From assembly GCA_015478725.1 (NCBI GenBank), contig JADMIG010000001.1, positions 412,748-476,747 on the forward strand: a DNA stretch of 64,000 nt, given 5' to 3'. Both the position numbers and the translations under genes were made by a program. Below are positions 22,369-31,782 of the stretch, in pieces. The DNA is from Chloroflexota bacterium. GTDB lineage: Bacteria; Chloroflexota; Limnocylindria; Limnocylindrales; CSP1-4. Under the pieces are notes generated by a model that made no database searches, was not told where the DNA came from, and saw only the letters and a list, made by a program, of their open reading frames with translations. Numbering within the stretch: the stretch's first letter is position 1; every line of letters begins with the position of its first letter.

Positions 22369-23022
22369 TCAGGCGCGGTGGCGTGACCGGAGCACGTCGA
22401 TGACCTCCGTCGGCGGGAGTCCCCGCTCGGCGAGGAGGACGAGCGCGTGGTAGAGCAGGTCCGCCGTCTCGCCGGCGAGCGCAGTCCGCGTCGCGGAGCG
22501 TGTGCCGGGTTCCGCGGCGGCATCGTCCTTCGCCGCGATGAGGACCTCGGTCGCCTCCTCGACGACCTTCCGACCGACGGCGTCCACCCCGCCCGCGAGT
22601 AGCGAGCCCGTGTAGGAACCGAGCGGCCGCGATCGAGTCCGCTCGTCGACCGTTCGCCACAGCGTCTCGAGCCAGGCGAACCCCTGCGCCGTTGGCACGC
22701 CCTGCGGCTCGTCGACCGTCGCCGCGGCATCGAAGCAGCTCCGCGTCCCGCGATGACAGGTCGGGCCGGCCGGATCCACGGTGAGGAGGATGGCGTCCTC
22801 GTCGCAGTCGAGGGAGAGATCGCGGAGACGGAGCGTGTTGCCGCTGGTCTCGCCCTTGCGCCAGAGCCGACCGCGCGATCGCGAATGGAAATGGACTTCG
22901 CCCGTCGCGAGGGTGGCCGCGAGCGCCTCGGCGTCGACATAGCCGAGCATGAGGACGCGCCCGTCGGCCGCGTCCTGGACGATCGCCGGCGCGAGTCCGT
23001 CCGGGCCATAGGACGGCGTCAC
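22369..23022 (-). CDS. hisIE: Bifunctional phosphoribosyl-AMP cyclohydrolase / phosphoribosyl-ATP pyrophosphatase
   Basis: A 217-residue fusion performing histidine steps 2 and 3. The HisI half (residues 1-~115) has [33 protein letters not shown], the metal motif DCDEDAILL, and [11 protein letters not shown]. The HisE half has [34 protein letters not shown] and [17 protein letters not shown]. The GTG start at 23022 overlaps the hisF stop (GTGA). It is the last gene of the his operon and converges on tyrS. Confidence 0.95.
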
Positions 23023-23804
23023 GTCGGGCCCTCCATGACGCGCCGGATCGGGAGTCCCGCCGCGGCGAGGCTCGCCTTGACGGCGGCGATCGAGTGGATC
23101 CGGCGGTGGAACATGCTCGCGGCGAGGACGGCGTCCGCGCCGCCGGTCACGATCGCCGCGATGAGGTCGTCGGGGCCCGCGGCACCGCCGGAGGCGATGA
23201 CGGGCACGCGGACGGCCGAGGTCACCGCTCGCAGGAGCTCGAGGTCGTAGCCGCCCTGCGTGCCGTCGCGGTCGATCGAGGTGACAAGGAGCTCGCCCGC
23301 CCCGGATGCCACGGCCTCGCGCGCCCACGCGACCGCGTCTCGCCCGGTGGGTTCCCGCCCGCCGACGACGACGACCTCCCAGCCCGCCTCCGGACCCGGA
23401 CCGCGCCGTCGGGCGTCGATCGCCACGACGACCGCCTGGACCCCGTAGCGATCCGCGCACGCCCGGATGAGTCGCGGATCCCGGACCGCGGCGGTGTTGA
23501 GTGCGACCTTGTCCGCACCGGCTCGCAGCACGGCGCCCATCTCGTCGACGGATCGCACGCCGCCGCCGACCGTCAGCGGGATGAACGCACGCCGGGCCGT
23601 CCGCTCGACGATGCCGAGGAGGGTCGAACGCCCTTCCGGCGCGGCGGCGATGTCGAGGAACACCAGCTCATCCACGCCCTCGCGGGCGTACCGCTCGGCC
23701 AGCTCGGGCGGGTCGCCCTCGTCGACGAGATCGATGAAGCGGGTGCCCTTGACGACTCGACCGTTCGCCACGTCGAGGCACGGGATGATCCGCCGTCGGA
23801 GCAT
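23019..23804 (-). CDS. hisF: Imidazole glycerol phosphate synthase cyclase subunit
   Basis: A 261-residue TIM barrel that uses ammonia from HisH to form imidazole glycerol phosphate and AICAR. It starts [20 protein letters not shown] with the catalytic Asp. Conserved loops are [33 protein letters not shown] split over strand 3, [16 protein letters not shown], and [17 protein letters not shown] 23804 shares its A with the hisH stop (TGATG), consistent with stoichiometric synthesis of the two subunits. Longer starts would lie inside hisH. Confidence 0.97.
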
Positions 23805-24505
23805 CAGGCGACCCCGAGGGCTGCGGTCCGGTTTCGACTCGCGGCGGCGAGTCGAACGACGTTCTCGAGCAGCCGCAGGCCGTCGAGGCCGCTCCGTTCG
23901 GGATGGAACTGGACGCCGAGGCATCGGCCACGGGCGACCGCGCTGACGAAGCGCTCGCCATGCTCGGTCTCGGCGAGCACGATATCGGTCTCCTCAGGCG
24001 CGGGCCGCACCACGTAGGAGTGGACGAAGTACAGATCCACCCCATCCGCCATGCCCTCGAAGATCGGGTGCTCGCGCCGTCGCTCCACCTGGTTCCATCC
24101 GATGTGCGGGAGCGTCGGCGCGGCGAGGAGGGGGACCGTTCGACCGGCGAACACGCCGAGGGTCGTGGCGCCGTCCTCGTCGCTCGTCTCGAACAGGAGC
24201 TGGAGACCGAGACAGATGCCGAGGAACGGACGGTCGGCGGCGATCCAGTCGCGGAGCGGATCGGCGAGGCCGCGTTCCTCGAGACGGGCCATCGCCGGCG
24301 CGGCGGCGCCGACGCCCGGCAGCACCACGAGGTCCGCCTGCTCGAGCTCCTCCGGCGTTGCGGCGAGAACAGGGCGTGCGCCGACGATTTCGAGCGCCTG
24401 GGCGATGCTCACGAGGTTGCCGGCCCCGTGGTCCACGATTGCGACCGCGACGGCCGTCTCGGCCGGATCCGCCCGGTCGGGCGACCCTCCGAGCGCGATC
24501 GTCAT
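23804..24505 (-). CDS. hisH: Imidazole glycerol phosphate synthase glutaminase subunit
   Basis: A 233-residue class I glutamine amidotransferase partner of HisF. The nucleophile is in [13 protein letters not shown], and the His-Glu pair is in [15 protein letters not shown]. The N-terminal strand [19 protein letters not shown] is preceded by ~18 extra residues, so a start a little downstream of ATG 24505 is possible. The ATGA overlap with hisB supports the annotated start. Confidence 0.96.
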
Positions 24506-25128
24506 CCGGGCGTCCCCTTCGTGGAGGCGACACCGGATCGTCGCGGATCGACCGCGCAGGCGCCGCGGAGGGATCGGCCGAGTGCCTTGAAGGCGGCCTC
24601 GGCGAGGTGGTGGTCGTTGCGTCCCGAGCCTCGCAGGTGGAGCGTCGCGCCGGCGGTCCTCGCGAACGCCTCGAGCGCGTGGTCGACGAGCTGGAGCGGA
24701 AGTCCGCCGACTCGCTCGCCGCGGAACTCCAGATCGACGACAGCGTACGGCCGTCCACCGAGATCGACGATCGCGGTGGCGAGCGCCTCGTCCATCGGGA
24801 CCGACGCCTCGCCGAAACGGACGATCCCCGTCCGTTCACCAAGCGCCGCCGCGAAGGCCGCCCCGAGCACGAGGGCGACGTCCTCGACCGTGTGGTGCTC
24901 GTCGACGTGGAGGTCGCCGTCCGCCCGGATGTCGAGATCGAAGAGGCCATGGTGGGCGAGGGACCCGAGGAGATGGTCGTAGAAGCCCACGCCGGTCGCG
25001 ATGGAAGCGAGGCCGGACCCGTCGAGGTCGAGCCGGACGGAGACACGCGTCTCGCGCGTCTCGCGGCTGACCGCGGCGGTACGCGGAGCGCCCACGTCGA
25101 CGACGAGCTGCCCGATGGGGCTCGTCAT
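24502..25128 (-). CDS. hisB: Imidazoleglycerol-phosphate dehydratase
   Basis: A 208-residue monofunctional IGPD, without the phosphatase domain of the enterobacterial fusion. The manganese-binding His clusters are FYDHLLGSLAHHGLFDL and HVDEHHTVEDVALVLG in the first half, and HLRGSGRNDHHLAEAAFK in the second. Length and motif order are normal. It overlaps hisC upstream and hisH downstream, each by 4 bp (ATGA). Confidence 0.96.
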   Translation of the reverse strand: MTSPIGQLVVDVGAPRTAAVSRETRETRVSVRLDLDGSGLASIATGVGFYDHLLGSLAHHGLFDLDIRADGDLHVDEHHTVEDVALVLGAAFAAALGERTGIVRFGEASVPMDEALATAIVDLGGRPYAVVDLEFRGERVGGLPLQLVDHALEAFARTAGATLHLRGSGRNDHHLAEAAFKALGRSLRGACAVDPRRSGVASTKGTPG

Positions 25129-26279
25129 GTCGTCCCGCCCGGGGCGGCGACCCGTTGCCCGCGGACCGCCTCGAGGAGTCGATCGTCCTGTTCGCGCGAG
25201 CGGACGGTGATCCGGAGGTGATCGGCGAGTGGATGCCCCCGTCCGAACGTCCGCGGGACGAGGCCACGCCGAAGGAGCGCCTCGGCGACGGCCGCCGTCG
25301 CGGACGGAGAGGCGAATCGCACGAGCACGAAGTTCGTCACGCTCGGCAGGACGAGCCCGCCCGCGTCCGCCAGGCCAGCGCTCAGGCGTTCGCGTTCGGC
25401 GTGCATCGCGGCTACCCGCGGGCCGAGCCAGCCGTCCGCCTCGAGAGCGGCGGTCACGACGGTGACAGAGACGACCGAGACCGAACCGGGAGGCCGATAC
25501 GGTTCGATCTCGGCGAGCGTCTCGCGGACGCCGATGGCGAAGCCGACGCGCAGTCCCGCGAGGCCGTACGCCTTGCTCGCTGTGCGGACGACGATGAGTC
25601 GGGGGTAGTCGGCGCGGAGCCCGACGAGACTCGAACCGACGAACTCGGCGTACGCCTCATCGAGGACGACGATGGGGGCCGGGCGATCGGATCTCCGGGC
25701 GTCGTCGCGGAGGGTCGCCAGCAGACCGGCGATCCCCCCGTCGGGCTCGGGCAGGGCCGTCGGATTGTTCGGGCTGCAGAGCCAGACGAGGTCGGCCGCA
25801 CGCGCGGCGGACCGGACCGCGGGAAGGTCGAGGGCAAACCCGTCGTCCGGGCCGAGGCGGGGGACGCGCCGGACGGTCGCGCCACGCTGCTCGGTGAGGA
25901 CGCGGTACATCGCGTACGTCGGTGTCGGGATGACGGCGACCGAGCCGGGCCGGAGGCAGGCTTTGGCGACGAGGTCGAGGATCTCGTCCGCGCCCGCCCC
26001 CACGACGATCTCGTCGGGACGGACGCCGTACCGAAGGGCCGCCGCTTCGGCAAGGCGCCGATAGTCGGCCGGCGGGTACTCGGACAACCCGGGCTCGAAC
26101 CGGCCGGCGGCGATGACGGACGCCGCGAGCGACGGCGGCTCCGGGGCGGTGTTGAGATCGAAGCGCACGATCGCCGTGAGCGGCAGCCCGTACCGCGCGG
26201 CGACCTCCTCACTCGTCGCTTCCCACGAGTAACTGGGGGGTGCTGTCGGCATCGTCATCGTCACGGCGGTCGGGCTCAT
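25125..26279 (-). CDS. hisC: Histidinol-phosphate aminotransferase
   Basis: A 384-residue fold-type I PLP enzyme. Typical elements are VRFDLNTAPEPPSL, VVGAGADEILDLVAKA, VWLCSPNNPTALP, VVLDEAYAEFVG, and the PLP lysine in RTASKAYGLAGLRVGFAIG. The C-terminal Arg for substrate carboxylate is in HLRITVRSREQDDRLL. It begins with ATG 26279 overlapping the hisD stop (ATGA). Confidence 0.95.
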   Translation of the reverse strand: MSPTAVTMTMPTAPPSYSWEATSEEVAARYGLPLTAIVRFDLNTAPEPPSLAASVIAAGRFEPGLSEYPPADYRRLAEAAALRYGVRPDEIVVGAGADEILDLVAKACLRPGSVAVIPTPTYAMYRVLTEQRGATVRRVPRLGPDDGFALDLPAVRSAARAADLVWLCSPNNPTALPEPDGGIAGLLATLRDDARRSDRPAPIVVLDEAYAEFVGSSLVGLRADYPRLIVVRTASKAYGLAGLRVGFAIGVRETLAEIEPYRPPGSVSVVSVTVVTAALEADGWLGPRVAAMHAERERLSAGLADAGGLVLPSVTNFVLVRFASPSATAAVAEALLRRGLVPRTFGRGHPLADHLRITVRSREQDDRLLEAVRGQRVAAPGGTT

Positions 26280-27634
26280 CCGGCGGCTCCCGGGACTCCG
26301 ACGGCGTCGGCGAAGCGGATCTCCACCGCATCGCGATGGGCGACGAGGCCCTCGGCGGCCGCGATCGTCCCGACCGCTTCCCGGATCGCGGCGAGGCCCT
26401 GGCGATCGATGCGCTGGACCTGGATGAACTTGCCGAAGGCCTCGACAGCGAGGGCTCCGGAGCTCCGCGCGAGGCCGCCCGTGGGGAGGACGTGGTTTGC
26501 CCCCGACGCGTAGTCCCCGGCGCTCTCCGGCGCGTACCGTCCCACGAACACCGAGCCGGCGTTGCGGATCCGGGCGACCGCATCCTCGACGTCCTCGACG
26601 ACGACCGTCAGGTGTTCCGGCGCGTACGCGTCGACGAATGCGATGGCCGTATCGAGATCGGGCGCGAGGACGATGAGGCCGGCCGCGGCGAGGCTTCGCT
26701 CGAGAATCTCCCGTCGGCCCGCACTCACGAGCCGGCGACCGATCGCCTCCTCGACGGCGGCGGCGAACGCGGGGTCGGCCGTCACGAGGAGCGCCGGCGA
26801 GTCCGGTCCATGCTCCGCCTGGCTGAGAAGATCCGCCGCGACGTACTCCGGGTCGGCGGTGCCGTCGGCGAGGACGAGCACCTCCGACGGCCCGGCCGGA
26901 AGGTCGATCCCGACTTCCCCGAAGATCTCGAGCTTGGCCGCAGTGACCCACGCGTTGCCCGGCCCCACGATCCGGTCGACGGGCGCGAGACCTTCGTCCT
27001 TCAGGCCGCAGGCGAGGGCACCGATAGCCTGGGCGCCACCGGCGACGACGAAGGCGTCGACGTCGACAAGGCCGGCAGCGCCGAGGAGCGTCGCATCGAG
27101 CCGGCCGTCCCGATCGGCAGGCGAGGCGACGACGAATGCGCCCACCCCGGCGACCTTCGCCGGGATCGCACACATGAGGAGCGAGCTCGGGTAGGCCGCC
27201 GTTCCGCCGGGAACGTATGCGCCGGCCCGAGCGAGGGGGACCCAGCGACGTTCGATCTCGATGCCGGGCACGATCGTGGTCCGGACCGTGGCGGGTCGCT
27301 GGGTCGTCGCGAAGCGCATGAGGTTGGCGATCATCGTCTCGAGTCCCGCCCGGACGGGGCGGGGGAGGGCATCGCGCGCGGCGAGGAGCTCGTTCCGATC
27401 GAGCGTCAACCGGCCATCCGGCAGCCCACCTCCGTGGCGAGCGTTCGCCTCGCGGACGGCCACGTCGCCCCGGAGACGGACATCGTCGAGGATCGCCCGG
27501 GCGGCCGACCTGACGGCCCGATCGGGGACCGCGCCGCGGCGCACGAGGGCGTCCCGCCGCGCCACGACGGTCGGATCGGTCGCAGCCGCGGCCAGGTCGA
27601 GCCGCTCCAGGCGGATCGGCGACGACGCGGTCAC
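26276..27634 (-). CDS. hisD: Histidinol dehydrogenase
   Basis: A 452-residue zinc enzyme oxidising histidinol to histidine in two NAD-dependent steps. Conserved regions are ARAGAYVPGGTAAYPSSLLM, AGGAQAIGALACG, RIVGPGNAWVTAAK, DLPAGPSEVLVLAD, and HGPDSPALLVT. The metal-site regions are SAGDYASGANHVLPTGG and the C-terminal EGLVAHRDAVEIR. The GTG start at 27634 overlaps the hisG stop as GTGA; upstream in-frame residues have no family resemblance. Confidence 0.96.
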   Translation of the reverse strand: MTASSPIRLERLDLAAAATDPTVVARRDALVRRGAVPDRAVRSAARAILDDVRLRGDVAVREANARHGGGLPDGRLTLDRNELLAARDALPRPVRAGLETMIANLMRFATTQRPATVRTTIVPGIEIERRWVPLARAGAYVPGGTAAYPSSLLMCAIPAKVAGVGAFVVASPADRDGRLDATLLGAAGLVDVDAFVVAGGAQAIGALACGLKDEGLAPVDRIVGPGNAWVTAAKLEIFGEVGIDLPAGPSEVLVLADGTADPEYVAADLLSQAEHGPDSPALLVTADPAFAAAVEEAIGRRLVSAGRREILERSLAAAGLIVLAPDLDTAIAFVDAYAPEHLTVVVEDVEDAVARIRNAGSVFVGRYAPESAGDYASGANHVLPTGGLARSSGALAVEAFGKFIQVQRIDRQGLAAIREAVGTIAAAEGLVAHRDAVEIRFADAVGVPGAAG

Positions 27635-28491
27635 GGGACGATCTTCTCGATGGGCAGGACGAGGATCCCGGAGGCGCCCGCCATCTTGAGACGGGGCAGC
27701 AGGCCCCACACGGCATCCGCGTCGACGACTGCGTGGATCGCGATCATGCCGGCATGGGCGAGCGGGATCACGGAGGGGCTCTCGAGGCCGGGCAGGATCG
27801 CCTCGAGCTCGGGAAGGTGGCTCGCCGGCGCGTTCATCATGAGGTACTTCTTGTCGCGCGCGGCGATGACCGCGGCCAGCATGGTATCGATGGCCCCGAG
27901 CTCTGCGGGCCGTGCCTCCAGGGCGGCGGGATCGGCCACGAGCAGCGCCTCGGAGGCGAGGACGTCGCCGATCGGGCGGAGGCCGTTCATCGCGAGCGTC
28001 GAGCCCGTGGACACCAGGTCGACGATCGCCTCGGCGAGCCCGAGACGGGGCGCGACCTCGACGGCGCCGGAGATCGGGATGATGTCGACGGCGATGCGGC
28101 GCGCGGCGAAGTAGCGTCGGGTCGTCTCCGGGTGGGCGGTCGCGACCCGCAGCCCGGCGAGATCCTCCACCGTCCGCTGCGGCGCGTCCGAGGGAACGGC
28201 TGCGGCGAGGCGGCAGCGGCCATATCCCAGCGCGCGAAGGACCGGCAACTCCGCCCCGGCCTCCGCGAGCAGGTCCTGGCCGGTGATCCCGAGGTCGGCC
28301 ACACCGTCGCCGACGAACTCGATGATGTCGTTCGTCCGGACGAAGAGGACGTCGAGGGGAAGGTTCTGGACCCGTGCCACGAGGCTCCGGTCGTGCTCCT
28401 CGAACACGAGCCCGGCGTCGTGGAGGAGGGCCAGGGTCGGCTCGACCAGGCGACCCTTGTTCGGGATCGCCAGCCGCAGACGCTCCCTCAT
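27631..28491 (-). CDS. hisG: ATP phosphoribosyltransferase, long form
   Basis: A 286-residue first enzyme of histidine synthesis. The catalytic bilobed domain starts LRLAIPNKGRLVEPTLALL and includes DIIEFVGDGVADLGITGQDLL, AVEVAPRLGLAEAIVDLVSTGSTL split across the PRPP-binding loop, and YLMMNAP. The C-terminal ~75 residues are the histidine-sensing domain of HisG-L, so it should not need HisZ. The ATG overlaps the yerC stop (ATGA). Confidence 0.96.
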   Translation of the reverse strand: MRERLRLAIPNKGRLVEPTLALLHDAGLVFEEHDRSLVARVQNLPLDVLFVRTNDIIEFVGDGVADLGITGQDLLAEAGAELPVLRALGYGRCRLAAAVPSDAPQRTVEDLAGLRVATAHPETTRRYFAARRIAVDIIPISGAVEVAPRLGLAEAIVDLVSTGSTLAMNGLRPIGDVLASEALLVADPAALEARPAELGAIDTMLAAVIAARDKKYLMMNAPASHLPELEAILPGLESPSVIPLAHAGMIAIHAVVDADAVWGLLPRLKMAGASGILVLPIEKIVP

Positions 28492-28847
28492 CGCTCGGCG
28501 GCCGGGGGGTACGGACGCGAGCTGTCGCGAGCGGTCGCAGCGAGTCGCTCGAGCGCCGCCCGGTAGCCATCCTCGCCGTGGTGGAGCCACGAGGCGATCC
28601 GGGTGATCGTCGCGGTGCTCGCTCCGGTGAGCCGGGAGATCTCGGCGTAATGAAGGCGCGCGTCCAGGAGCCGCACGACGGCCCACCGCTGCGCCATGTC
28701 GTGGAGCTCGCCGACCGTGCAGAGGTCGCGAAAGAATCGGGCGGCCCCCTCGACATCGTCGAGACCGAGGATCGCTTCGTAGAGCGCCGTCAGATCGTCC
28801 CCGTCCGCTGTCGAAGCGCGGCGGGTGAGCTCGTCGCCGGTGGTCAT
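28488..28847 (-). CDS. TrpR-like transcriptional regulator, YerC/HisR type
   Basis: A 119-residue all-helical repressor of the TrpR superfamily (YerC/YecD branch). It starts MTTGDELTRRAS. The body has LTALYEAILGLDDVEGAARFF, GELHDMAQRWAVVRLLD, and the HTH IAEISRL-like ARLHYAEISRLTGASTATI, then RIASWLHHGEDGYRAAL. In Gram-positive bacteria this branch has been associated with histidine-gene control. Its position as first gene of the his operon, overlapping hisG, makes that role likely here. ATG 28847 is preferred over starts up to 28925 because those would fall inside the repeat-rich operator. Confidence 0.88.
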   Translation of the reverse strand: MTTGDELTRRASTADGDDLTALYEAILGLDDVEGAARFFRDLCTVGELHDMAQRWAVVRLLDARLHYAEISRLTGASTATITRIASWLHHGEDGYRAALERLAATARDSSRPYPPAAER

Positions 28848-28873: not shown

Positions 28874-28923
28874 GCATGCTGACATGCCAGCATGCTACTG
28901 TGCTAACGTAGTAGCACGCTAAC
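28874..28923. promoter_or_regulatory. Candidate operator between yerC-his operon and hisA, 8-bp-phased half-sites
   Basis: Two inverted repeats are visible: GCATGCTG/CAGCATGC (28874-28881 and 28888-28895) and GTGCTA/TAGCAC (28900-28905 and 28912-28917). Related octamers ATGCTGAC, ATGCTACT, GTGCTAAC and ACGCTAAC begin at 28876, 28892, 28900 and 28916, all multiples of 8 bp apart. The array lies between the divergent regulator operon and hisA, and is much richer in A/T than its surroundings. Binding by the TrpR-like regulator is inferred. Confidence 0.65.
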
Positions 28924-28947
28924 ACGTCAAGGGGTGCCGCGTCAACG

Positions 28948-29685
28948 ATGCCATTCGAGCTCTATGCGGCGATCGATCTCGGCGGTGGGGCGGTGGTTCG
29001 GCTTCGCCAAGGAGACTTCGATCGGGCGACTGTGTATCCCGGTGACCCCGCGACGATCGGCCGGGCGTTCGTGGCCGAGGGAGCGCGGTGGATCCACGTC
29101 GTGGACCTCGACGGGGCGCGGTCGGGGGAGCCGATGCAGGTCGCCGCGATCCGCTCTGTCATCGATGCTGTCGCCGGACGGGCGCGGATCCAGGTCGCCG
29201 GCGGACTGCGGACGGAGGCGGCCGTGGGCTCGGCCCTGGACTCCGGCGCGAGCCGCGTGGTCGTGGGTACCGCAGCCCTCCGGGATCCGTCGTTCGGCAC
29301 ACGGATCGTCGAGGCGCATGGACCGGACGCCATCGCGGTCGCACTCGATGTTCGCGACGGCGTCGCGATCGGCGAGGCATGGCGCTCGGGAGCGGACGGC
29401 GCCGCCGTCGACGACGCTCTCCGACGGTTGGCCGGTGCCGGCGTGGAGACGTTCGTCGTCACCGCCATCGAGCGAGACGGTCTGCTCGAGGGACCGGATC
29501 TCGGGCTTCTCGCCCGCCTCGTGCTGCTCGACCGGGGAGCGATTGTCGCCTCGGGAGGGATCGCGTCGCTCGACGACCTCCGGGCGGTCCGGGCCATCGG
29601 CTGTCGCGGCGCGATCGTCGGACGCGCAGTCTACGAAGGCAGGATCCGCCTCGACGAGGCGATCACCGCGATCCAAGCGTTCTGA
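28948..29685 (+). CDS. hisA: Phosphoribosylformimino-AICAR ribotide isomerase
   Basis: A 245-residue TIM-barrel isomerase for histidine step 4. It has FELYAAIDLGGGAVVRLRQG with the catalytic Asp, HVVDLDGARSG, IQVAGGLRTEAAV, ALDVRDGVA in place of the usual second catalytic Asp strand, TAIERDGLLEGPDL and VASGGIASLDDL. It is separated from the other his genes and transcribed divergently from them across the shared operator region. Elsewhere hisA usually lies between hisH and hisF. Confidence 0.94.
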   Translation: MPFELYAAIDLGGGAVVRLRQGDFDRATVYPGDPATIGRAFVAEGARWIHVVDLDGARSGEPMQVAAIRSVIDAVAGRARIQVAGGLRTEAAVGSALDSGASRVVVGTAALRDPSFGTRIVEAHGPDAIAVALDVRDGVAIGEAWRSGADGAAVDDALRRLAGAGVETFVVTAIERDGLLEGPDLGLLARLVLLDRGAIVASGGIASLDDLRAVRAIGCRGAIVGRAVYEGRIRLDEAITAIQAF

Positions 29686-29691
29686 GGACGC

Positions 29692-31782
29692 TCAGTGCCC
29701 GCCGGCAGCCTCGACGTGCCGGCGGTGCGCCTCGACGATCTTGTCGGCGACGGTCGCCGGGACCTCCTCGTAGTGGTCCAGGGTGGCCCTGAAGCTGCCC
29801 CGACCGTGGGTCAGCGATCGGAGCTCCGTCGCGTAGCTGAAGAGCTCCGCCTGCGGGACGTGGGCGGCCACGACCTGCAGCCCGTCTCCTCCGGCGTCCA
29901 TGCCGAGGACGCGTCCGCGCCGCGTGTTGAGATCGCGGTTCACGTCACCCATGTACCGCTCCGGGACCCGGACCTCGACGGACATGATCGGCTCGAGGAG
30001 GGCCGGCCGACAGTCGAGGACGCCCTTCCTGAGCGCCATCGACGCCGCGATCTTGAATGAGAGCTCGTTGCTGTCGACCGTGTGGAACGAGCCGTCGTAG
30101 AGGGTGGCCCTGAAATCGGATAGCGGATAGCCGGCGATGACGCCTTCGGCCGCGGCTTCCCGGACACCCTTCTCGACCCCCGGGAAGAAGCCCTTCGGCA
30201 CGGACCCGCCGACGACCTTCTCGGCGAACTCGACGCCGCCGCCCGGGTTCGGTTCGATCTCGAGCCAGACGTGCCCGAACATCCCGTGGCCGCCGGTCTG
30301 CTTCTTGTACTTGCCCTCGACCTGGGTCCGTCCCCGGATCGTCTCCCGATACGGGACCCGCGGGGTGCGCGTGACGATCGTCGCCCCGAACTTCCGCTTG
30401 AGCCGTTCCGCGATCACCGCGATATGGGCCTCGCCGGTCGCGACGAGGAGCTGCTCGCCCGTCGCGCTCCGCTCGAGGCGGACGCACGGCTCCTCCTCGA
30501 GCATCCGGTTCAGGGCGGCACCCATCTTGTCGAGGTCGGCCTTGGTCTGCGGTTCGATCGCCACCGGGAGGGTCGGCTCGGGAAAAACGAGCGGGTCGAG
30601 GAGCAACGGATGCTCGCGGCTCGAGAGGGTATCGCCGGTCGCGGTGACGGACAGTTTCGCGACGGCGCCGATCTCGCCGGCCTTGAGCTCGCCCACGGGC
30701 TCCTGGTCCTTGCCGTGGATGAGCAGGAGCTGGCCGATTCGCTCGTCCTCGCCGCGCCCGGCGTTCCACGCGTGGCCCTGCGAGTGGATCGTCCCCGACA
30801 GCACCCGGAGGTAGGTGAGGCGCCCGACAAAGGGGTCGGCGGCCGTCTTGAAGACGCGGGCGAGCAATGGTCCCGCCGGATCGGGGGGAACGCTCACGGC
30901 ATCCCCGGACTTCGGTTCGCGAGCGGTCGCCGGACCCTCGTCGGTCGGCGAGGGCAGGTAGCGGACGAACGCATCGAGGAGACCGCGGAGCCCGATCCCC
31001 CTGACAGCGCTCCCGACAAGGACAGGGGCGAGGATGGACTCCTTCACGCCCTTCCGCAGGCACGCCTCGAGCTCCGGGTCGCTGACTTCCTCACCCTCGA
31101 GGTACTTCGCCAGGACGTCATCGTCCGCCTCGGCGGCCGCCTCGAGGAGCTGATCGCGCCGCCTCGCGACCTCCGCGGCGAGCCCCTCGGGGACGGGGAT
31201 CTCGACCTCCTGGCTGCCATCCCAGTGCCACGCCCGCCGGTGGACCAGGTCGACGTAGCCGGCGAAGCCATCTCCGCTGCCGATCGCCAGCTGGAGCGGG
31301 GCGACCTTCGTCCCGAATGTCGTCCGCAGGGCGTCGAGCGCCGCGCTGGGATCCGCGTTCTCGCGATCGCACTTGTTGATGAAGAAGCAGGCGGCACGAC
31401 CTGTCGATCGGCCGAGCGCGACCGCACTCTCGAGGCCGGAGTCGACGCCGCCGGAGGCGTCCATGACGAAAAGCGCCCCGTCGACGCCGGCGAACCCCTC
31501 GATCACCTCGGCGACGAGATCCGGATAGCCGGGCGTGTCGATGAGGGTCACCCGGGTCCCATCGTCGTCGAGGGTGGCGACGGCCAGGGACAGCGATTCG
31601 TGGCGCTTCTGCTCCTCCGGCTCGTGGTCGAGCGTGCTCGTCCCGTCGTCGACCCGACCGAGCCGCTGCGTCGCTCCGGTGCGGAAGAGGAGCTGTTCCG
31701 CGAGCGTCGTCTTGCCGGAGCCGGCGTGTCCGGCGAGGACGACGCTCCGAAGGTGGGGGAGGTCAACGCTCTTCGTCGTCAT
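29692..31782 (-). CDS. Elongation factor G-like translational GTPase
   Basis: A 696-residue five-domain GTPase. G1 is [17 protein letters not shown]3 is [10 protein letters not shown] and G4 is FINKCDREN. Domain II follows residue ~300. Domain IV carries [20 protein letters not shown], and domain V starts near [18 protein letters not shown]. The sequence is the EF-G-like (EF-G2) type rather than canonical EF-G: the Switch I region ([24 protein letters not shown]) matches that branch. Its cellular role is not settled in the family. It ends 7 bp after the convergent hisA stop and is divergent from yebC. Confidence 0.9.

Follow-up and report, generated by a model that had tools for sequence, protein, structure and literature searches.

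A conserved array of phased 8-bp boxes between hisR and hisA in Chloroflexota, a predicted operator for the histidine regulator HisR

The intergenic gap that separates hisR from the divergent hisA in a Chloroflexota genome was found to hold six 8-bp boxes in a single, unbroken phase, and this phase recurs in about 90 related genomes. The array is very probably a shared operator of the histidine pathway, which tandem dimers of HisR charged with histidine would bind, and which would overlap the hisR promoter and adjoin hisA. All positions given here are those of the window, i.e., the whole 64-kb stretch of DNA that was analysed. A preliminary description of this DNA had noticed four phased octamers in the gap; the observation was confirmed, and proved to be larger than first described.

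Profile matches gave the order of the minus-strand operon as hisR-hisG-hisD-hisC-hisB-hisH-hisF-hisIE, with hisA divergent. This bore out the earlier claim that the regulator is the first gene of the his operon, and provided the linkage to his biosynthesis genes by which HisR regulons are recognized. The regulatory gene, hisR (28491–28847), was identified through TIGR02531 (E = 2.3e-24), the Pfam Trp_repressor family (E = 1.4e-23) and a solved homologue, 3G1C (E = 1.8e-18). It was followed on the minus strand by hisG (27631–28494; ATP phosphoribosyltransferase, long form with the C-terminal domain; TIGR00070 and TIGR03455), hisD (26276–27640, start not refined; histidinol dehydrogenase; TIGR00069, E = 1.6e-133), hisC (25125–26219; histidinol-phosphate aminotransferase; TIGR01141, E = 4.5e-70, below the cut-off), hisB (24502–25128; imidazoleglycerol-phosphate dehydratase; NCBIfam HisB models), hisH (23804–24505; TIGR01855, E = 1.2e-61), hisF (23019–23804, start approximate; TIGR00735, E = 1.5e-96) and hisIE (22369–23016, start approximate; NF002747, E = 9.8e-66). 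On the plus strand, hisA (28948–29685) matched TIGR00007 below its cut-off (E = 2.5e-59) and Pfam His_biosynth above it. The starts of hisR (28847) and hisA (28948) thereby delimit a gap of 100 bp. It had been proposed that one array could control the complete pathway; the operon from hisR to hisIE and hisA do flank it, but histidinol-phosphatase, the sole step of the pathway absent from the cluster, must be excepted. Directly 3' of hisA, and convergent with it, was an elongation factor G-like gene (29692–31782, minus strand).

The regulator belongs to YerC/HisR, a known family of histidine-dependent repressors within the TrpR family. Its protein passed the TIGR02531 (YerC/YecD) model with 85.6 bits (cut-off 42.2) and failed the TrpR model TIGR01321 with 19.8 bits (cut-off 67.25). 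The closest solved relative was 3G1C, a TrpR-like protein from Eubacterium eligens, to which the similarity extended over 90 residues, the helix-turn-helix stretch TGASTATI being identical; the regulator, called TrpR-like in the preliminary description, could, through TIGR02531 and 3G1C, be placed in HisR/YerC. The same protein, 3G1C, was analysed as HisR by Ashniev et al. 2022 (PMC9413887). The HisR of Ruminococcus gnavus binds its site only with histidine, while the consensus for Firmicutes is cacTTTA-N6-TAAAgtg, in which the TA steps are 8 bp apart (PMC9413887). Published HisR regulons come from Firmicutes, Actinobacteria, Synergistetes and Proteobacteria, and their sites are described as single 20-bp palindromes; Chloroflexota were outside that analysis, the phylum being named only in a reference title (PMC9413887). 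The literature searched yielded no data on binding or expression for a HisR from Chloroflexota.

The predicted operator array occupies 28877–28924. Read 5' to 3' on the minus strand, from 28924 down to 28877, its boxes are TGTTAGCG TGCTACTA CGTTAGCA CAGTAGCA TGCTGGCA TGTCAGCA, each of which fits YGCTAGCR at 6–7 of 8 positions; the centre is TA in boxes 1–4, and TG and CA in the last two. The plus-strand octamers of the preliminary description were all present, with ATGCTGAC at 28876, ATGCTACT at 28892, GTGCTAAC at 28900 and ACGCTAAC at 28916, at spacings of 16, 8 and 16 bp, which are multiples of 8 bp as claimed. All four half-sites are real, but this count was too low, as octamers of the same phase lying in between bring the number to six. 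Equally, these octamers had been related to GTGCTAAC, to which their identity is 6/8, 5/8, 8/8 and 6/8, respectively; a better description of the box is YGCTAGCR, a palindromic octamer in which the TA hardly varies.

Both of the inverted repeats that the octamers were said to form could be found. One, GCATGCTG-acatgc-CAGCATGC (28874–28895), involves boxes 5–6 and has a TA/TG-N6-TA/CA geometry as in the published HisR palindrome; the other, GTGCTA-acgtag-TAGCAC (28900–28917), involves boxes 2–3 and has the geometry of cacTTTA-N6-TAAAgtg. Each is a candidate HisR dimer site with a 6-bp centre, and the distance from centre to centre is 24 bp. The TA-N6-TA palindrome that typifies HisR regulons was therefore present as GTGCTA-N6-TAGCAC, together with the TG/CA variant GCTG-N6-CAGC, and the boxes were repeated at exactly 8 bp, as in tandem operators of the TrpR type. 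Outside the TA, the array bases are unlike the published HisR consensus, a consensus that varies with the lineage.

With up to one mismatch, GTGCTAAC occurred 6 times in the window where 13.85 matches were expected, and so was not enriched; 5 exact copies were found in the genome, two of them within the CIRCE element before hrcA. This octamer alone is not rare enough to carry weight, and the signal therefore lies in phase and conservation. In dinucleotide shuffles of the gap (n = 20,000), six boxes never arose, and the longest run, of five, was seen in 7. Four TA steps in a row at 8 bp were confined to this array across the 64-kb window; runs of three were absent from the 64 kb at periods of 6, 7, 10 and 11 bp, and occurred once at 9 bp. 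The CIRCE/HrcA pattern TTAGCACTC-N9-GAGTGCTAA was absent from the his array and occurs at another place in the genome, ahead of hrcA. A perfect CIRCE, GTTAGCACTC-N9-GAGTGCTAAC, stood before an hrcA-like gene (L003 1500–1529, i.e., G000:C24:5166–5195), and it is this element that holds two of the five GTGCTAAC copies.

Phylogenetic footprinting of the hisR-hisG/hisA intergenic regions, a check put forward in the preliminary description, gave strong support. A class-wide search found HisR in 95 of 177 genomes, and the footprint sample comprised 92 upstream regions, from 91 relatives plus the window; those relatives that bear names are without exception Chloroflexota metagenome assemblies. A run of three or more TA steps, spaced at exactly 8 bp, was present upstream of hisR in 82 of these 92 regions (expected 0.4), and the divergent order hisA|hisR-hisG was seen in 83 relatives. 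Among the 91 relatives, pairs of TA steps numbered 260, 157, 72 and 30 at distances of 8, 16, 24 and 32 bp, and 2, 0, 6, 5, 7, 1, 8 and 1 at distances of 7, 9, 15, 17, 23, 25, 31 and 33 bp; an 8-bp peak was not seen in flanking control DNA. Since all 82 aligned 40-mers from the arrays were different, while 8-bp pair counts stay high, the phase has been kept while the sequence drifted. A matrix derived from the relatives, with the window left out, scored the window array at 42.4 and the best unrelated place in the 64 kb at -0.3. The consensus of 298 TA boxes was the palindrome Y-G-C-T-A-G-C-R, nearly all boxes beginning with a pyrimidine and ending with a purine (positions 1 and 8), and this was also true of 133 strictly inner boxes. 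Arrays of 4–7 boxes were common among relatives, and direct repeats such as TGCTACTA TGCTACTA occurred in many; in six class relatives of family f5, the sites resembled CTTTAGCGTGCTAAAG, which fits both the Firmicutes HisR consensus and the 8-bp phase.

Other Chloroflexota families (f44, f19 and f9), in which HisA is ~40% identical to that of the window, again showed the divergent order and arrays of 3–4 boxes. In one genome, G103, hisR was displaced by ~3 kb; the hisG|hisA gap held an array, and so did the DNA preceding hisR, itself followed by hisC. Because arrays occurred at both places, this single genome suggests that the array marks his promoters, and not merely the surroundings of hisR. 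In the distant genome G332, HisR was encoded outside any his cluster and no array was found upstream of hisR; at this distant Chloroflexota locus (L161), hisR lay beside an amino-acid ABC transporter ATPase-like gene.

Promoter matches at the hisR/hisA gap were weak. A putative promoter for hisR was placed on the minus strand at 28916–28945, consisting of TTGACG (28945–28940), an 18-bp spacer and TAGCGT (28921–28916), from the sequence and from the spacing of TTGAC in relatives, where its distance to a following array TA was preferentially 18 bp (+8n) and less frequently 17 bp (+8n). This promoter is treated as putative because TTGACG-N18-TAGCGT went undetected in a sigma-70 scan with strict settings. 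Its -10 would fall inside the array, in boxes 1–2. On the hisA strand, no consistent -35 was found, which left hisA without an assignable promoter; 23 bp lie between the end of the array and the hisA start.

The following mechanism is proposed. HisR charged with L-histidine would bind the array as dimers, each dimer covering two adjacent boxes whose TA steps are separated by 8 bp. Since a box is nearly palindromic (YGCTAGCR), it could belong to two dimer sites at once, as right half-site of the first and left half-site of the second, and a tandem row of dimers could form with a step of 8 bp, like that of TrpR on the trp operator. Once filled, the array would cover the -10 of the hisR-hisGDCBHFIE promoter and block the divergent hisA promoter; given the short distance from the array to the hisA start, tandem HisR dimers would extend over both control regions. 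With both promoters covered, high histidine would silence both arms, hisR included. An operator of the tandem TrpR type, phased at 8 bp and common to the hisR operon and hisA, had been envisaged from the outset, and this prediction is favoured by the conserved phase, the gene order, the HisR family and the geometry of the R. gnavus site.

It is possible, although rather unlikely, that HisR occupancy is limited to one 20-bp palindrome or to two separate ones (28874–28895, 28900–28917) in the manner of Firmicutes, the other phased boxes being weak half-sites without a role. Of all half-site pairs in the window, those that form these two palindromes are the best, and the published HisR sites are described as single 20-bp palindromes (PMC9413887). 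However, column information showed that every inter-box gap is conserved in relatives and that strong and weak gaps do not alternate, while the frequency of 4–7-box arrays, and the persistence of the TA phase at 24 and 32 bp, also speak against isolated sites. Use of the array by some regulator other than HisR is very unlikely, in that the phase equals the known HisR/TrpR half-site spacing, arrays of family f5 include the HisR motif of Firmicutes and, in G103, an array stays at the his promoters with hisR 3 kb away, while another array precedes hisR too; such a regulator might nonetheless be entertained because the array adjoins hisR, which makes their association partly positional, and because the role given to HisR here is deduced from sequence.

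A function in RNA, with the repeats acting as attenuator or leader hairpins in the hisR or hisA transcript, appears highly improbable. No Rfam family was matched (best E = 0.12, far below the gathering score), a terminator-like site was not found, and direct repeats such as those of TGCTACTA in many relatives cannot pair together. The inverted repeats do fold on the hisR side, with a weak signal (z = -2.3), but folding on the hisA side was ordinary (z = -0.8), and with the putative -10 inside the array, part of the array would not be transcribed. The notion that chance or sequence drift produced an array without function can draw on the lack of GTGCTAAC enrichment in the window, but can be practically discounted, being contradicted by conservation within the family and in other families of the phylum, by the left-out matrix test and by the 8-bp TA pair counts.

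The preferred reading, of tandem HisR dimers on a shared his operator, can be extended to the phylum with less assurance, as a probable generalization. Chloroflexota HisR would then use a met-box-like operator of 3–7 near-palindromic octamers, on which overlapping dimers would assemble cooperatively in a row, an extended form of TrpR tandem binding; the operator would act as a single two-way switch over almost all of the histidine pathway, would be an ancestral trait of the phylum and would change in length by whole boxes.

The regulator was already known; for HisR, an operator of this form is new. The described HisR regulons (PMC9413887) involve the same protein family, sites with TA steps 8 bp apart and, in R. 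gnavus, histidine as co-repressor; they differ in that single 20-bp palindromes are described, whereas 3–7 tandem boxes with the consensus YGCTAGCR occur here, and one array would also serve the divergent hisA. The E. coli trp operator, AACTAGTT AACTAGTA, consists of two octamers at 8 bp, and tandem TrpR dimers are documented (PMC8745587). It is like the his array in the TrpR fold of its regulator and in octamers with a CTAG core at exactly 8 bp, but unlike it in ligand, in the bases outside the TA and in having two octamers rather than six. The met boxes of MetJ are a tandem 8-bp palindrome with the consensus AGACGTCT, present in at least two copies and in five at metF (PMC4239095, PMC3274233). 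Their layout is very similar, but sequence and protein fold are unrelated, and the resemblance is an analogy only. MetJ has a ribbon-helix-helix fold.

HisR control of histidine synthesis would thus be extended to Chloroflexota, where it was previously undescribed, with a TrpR-family operator built here as a long phased array. Approximately 80 distinct natural arrays (3–7 boxes), with their cognate repressors, provide a ready data set for examining the influence of operator length and of cooperativity on the tuning of end-product repression, for which TrpR and MetJ have been the main models to date.

An array model matched 89 of the 177 class genomes, largely those with hisR. This co-occurrence was given little weight because the array almost always adjoins hisR, and the association is largely positional. 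One match in a genome without hisR (G086) lay in an allantoinase-like gene. Genomes without hisR were rejected as a negative control, as hisA itself is mostly missing from these assemblies; their TIGR00007 matches, at 105–131 bits, are at the level of HisF (130 bits for the HisF of the present genome). Family members G019, G060, G075, G091, G095, G102, G104 and G105 had neither hisR nor a convincing hisA, only matches at HisF level, which suggests either that the entire locus was lost or that the assemblies have a gap there.

In the present genome, the array model produced three matches, among which the his array was the sole intergenic one. A match inside an allantoinase-like gene scored slightly above it (E = 2.4e-4 vs 3.7e-4) and another was inside a pyruvate-dehydrogenase gene (E = 0.007); both were rejected as regulon members and read as coding coincidences at conserved peptides. 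A phased TA run was observed at one conserved peptide of an allantoinase/hydantoinase-like gene in three genomes (L124 1501–1540, in the present genome; L131; L145). Phased TA runs were also seen at a recurrent carB-like position in several relatives (L133, L134, L139, L140, L141 and L143), where they are probably a coding coincidence.
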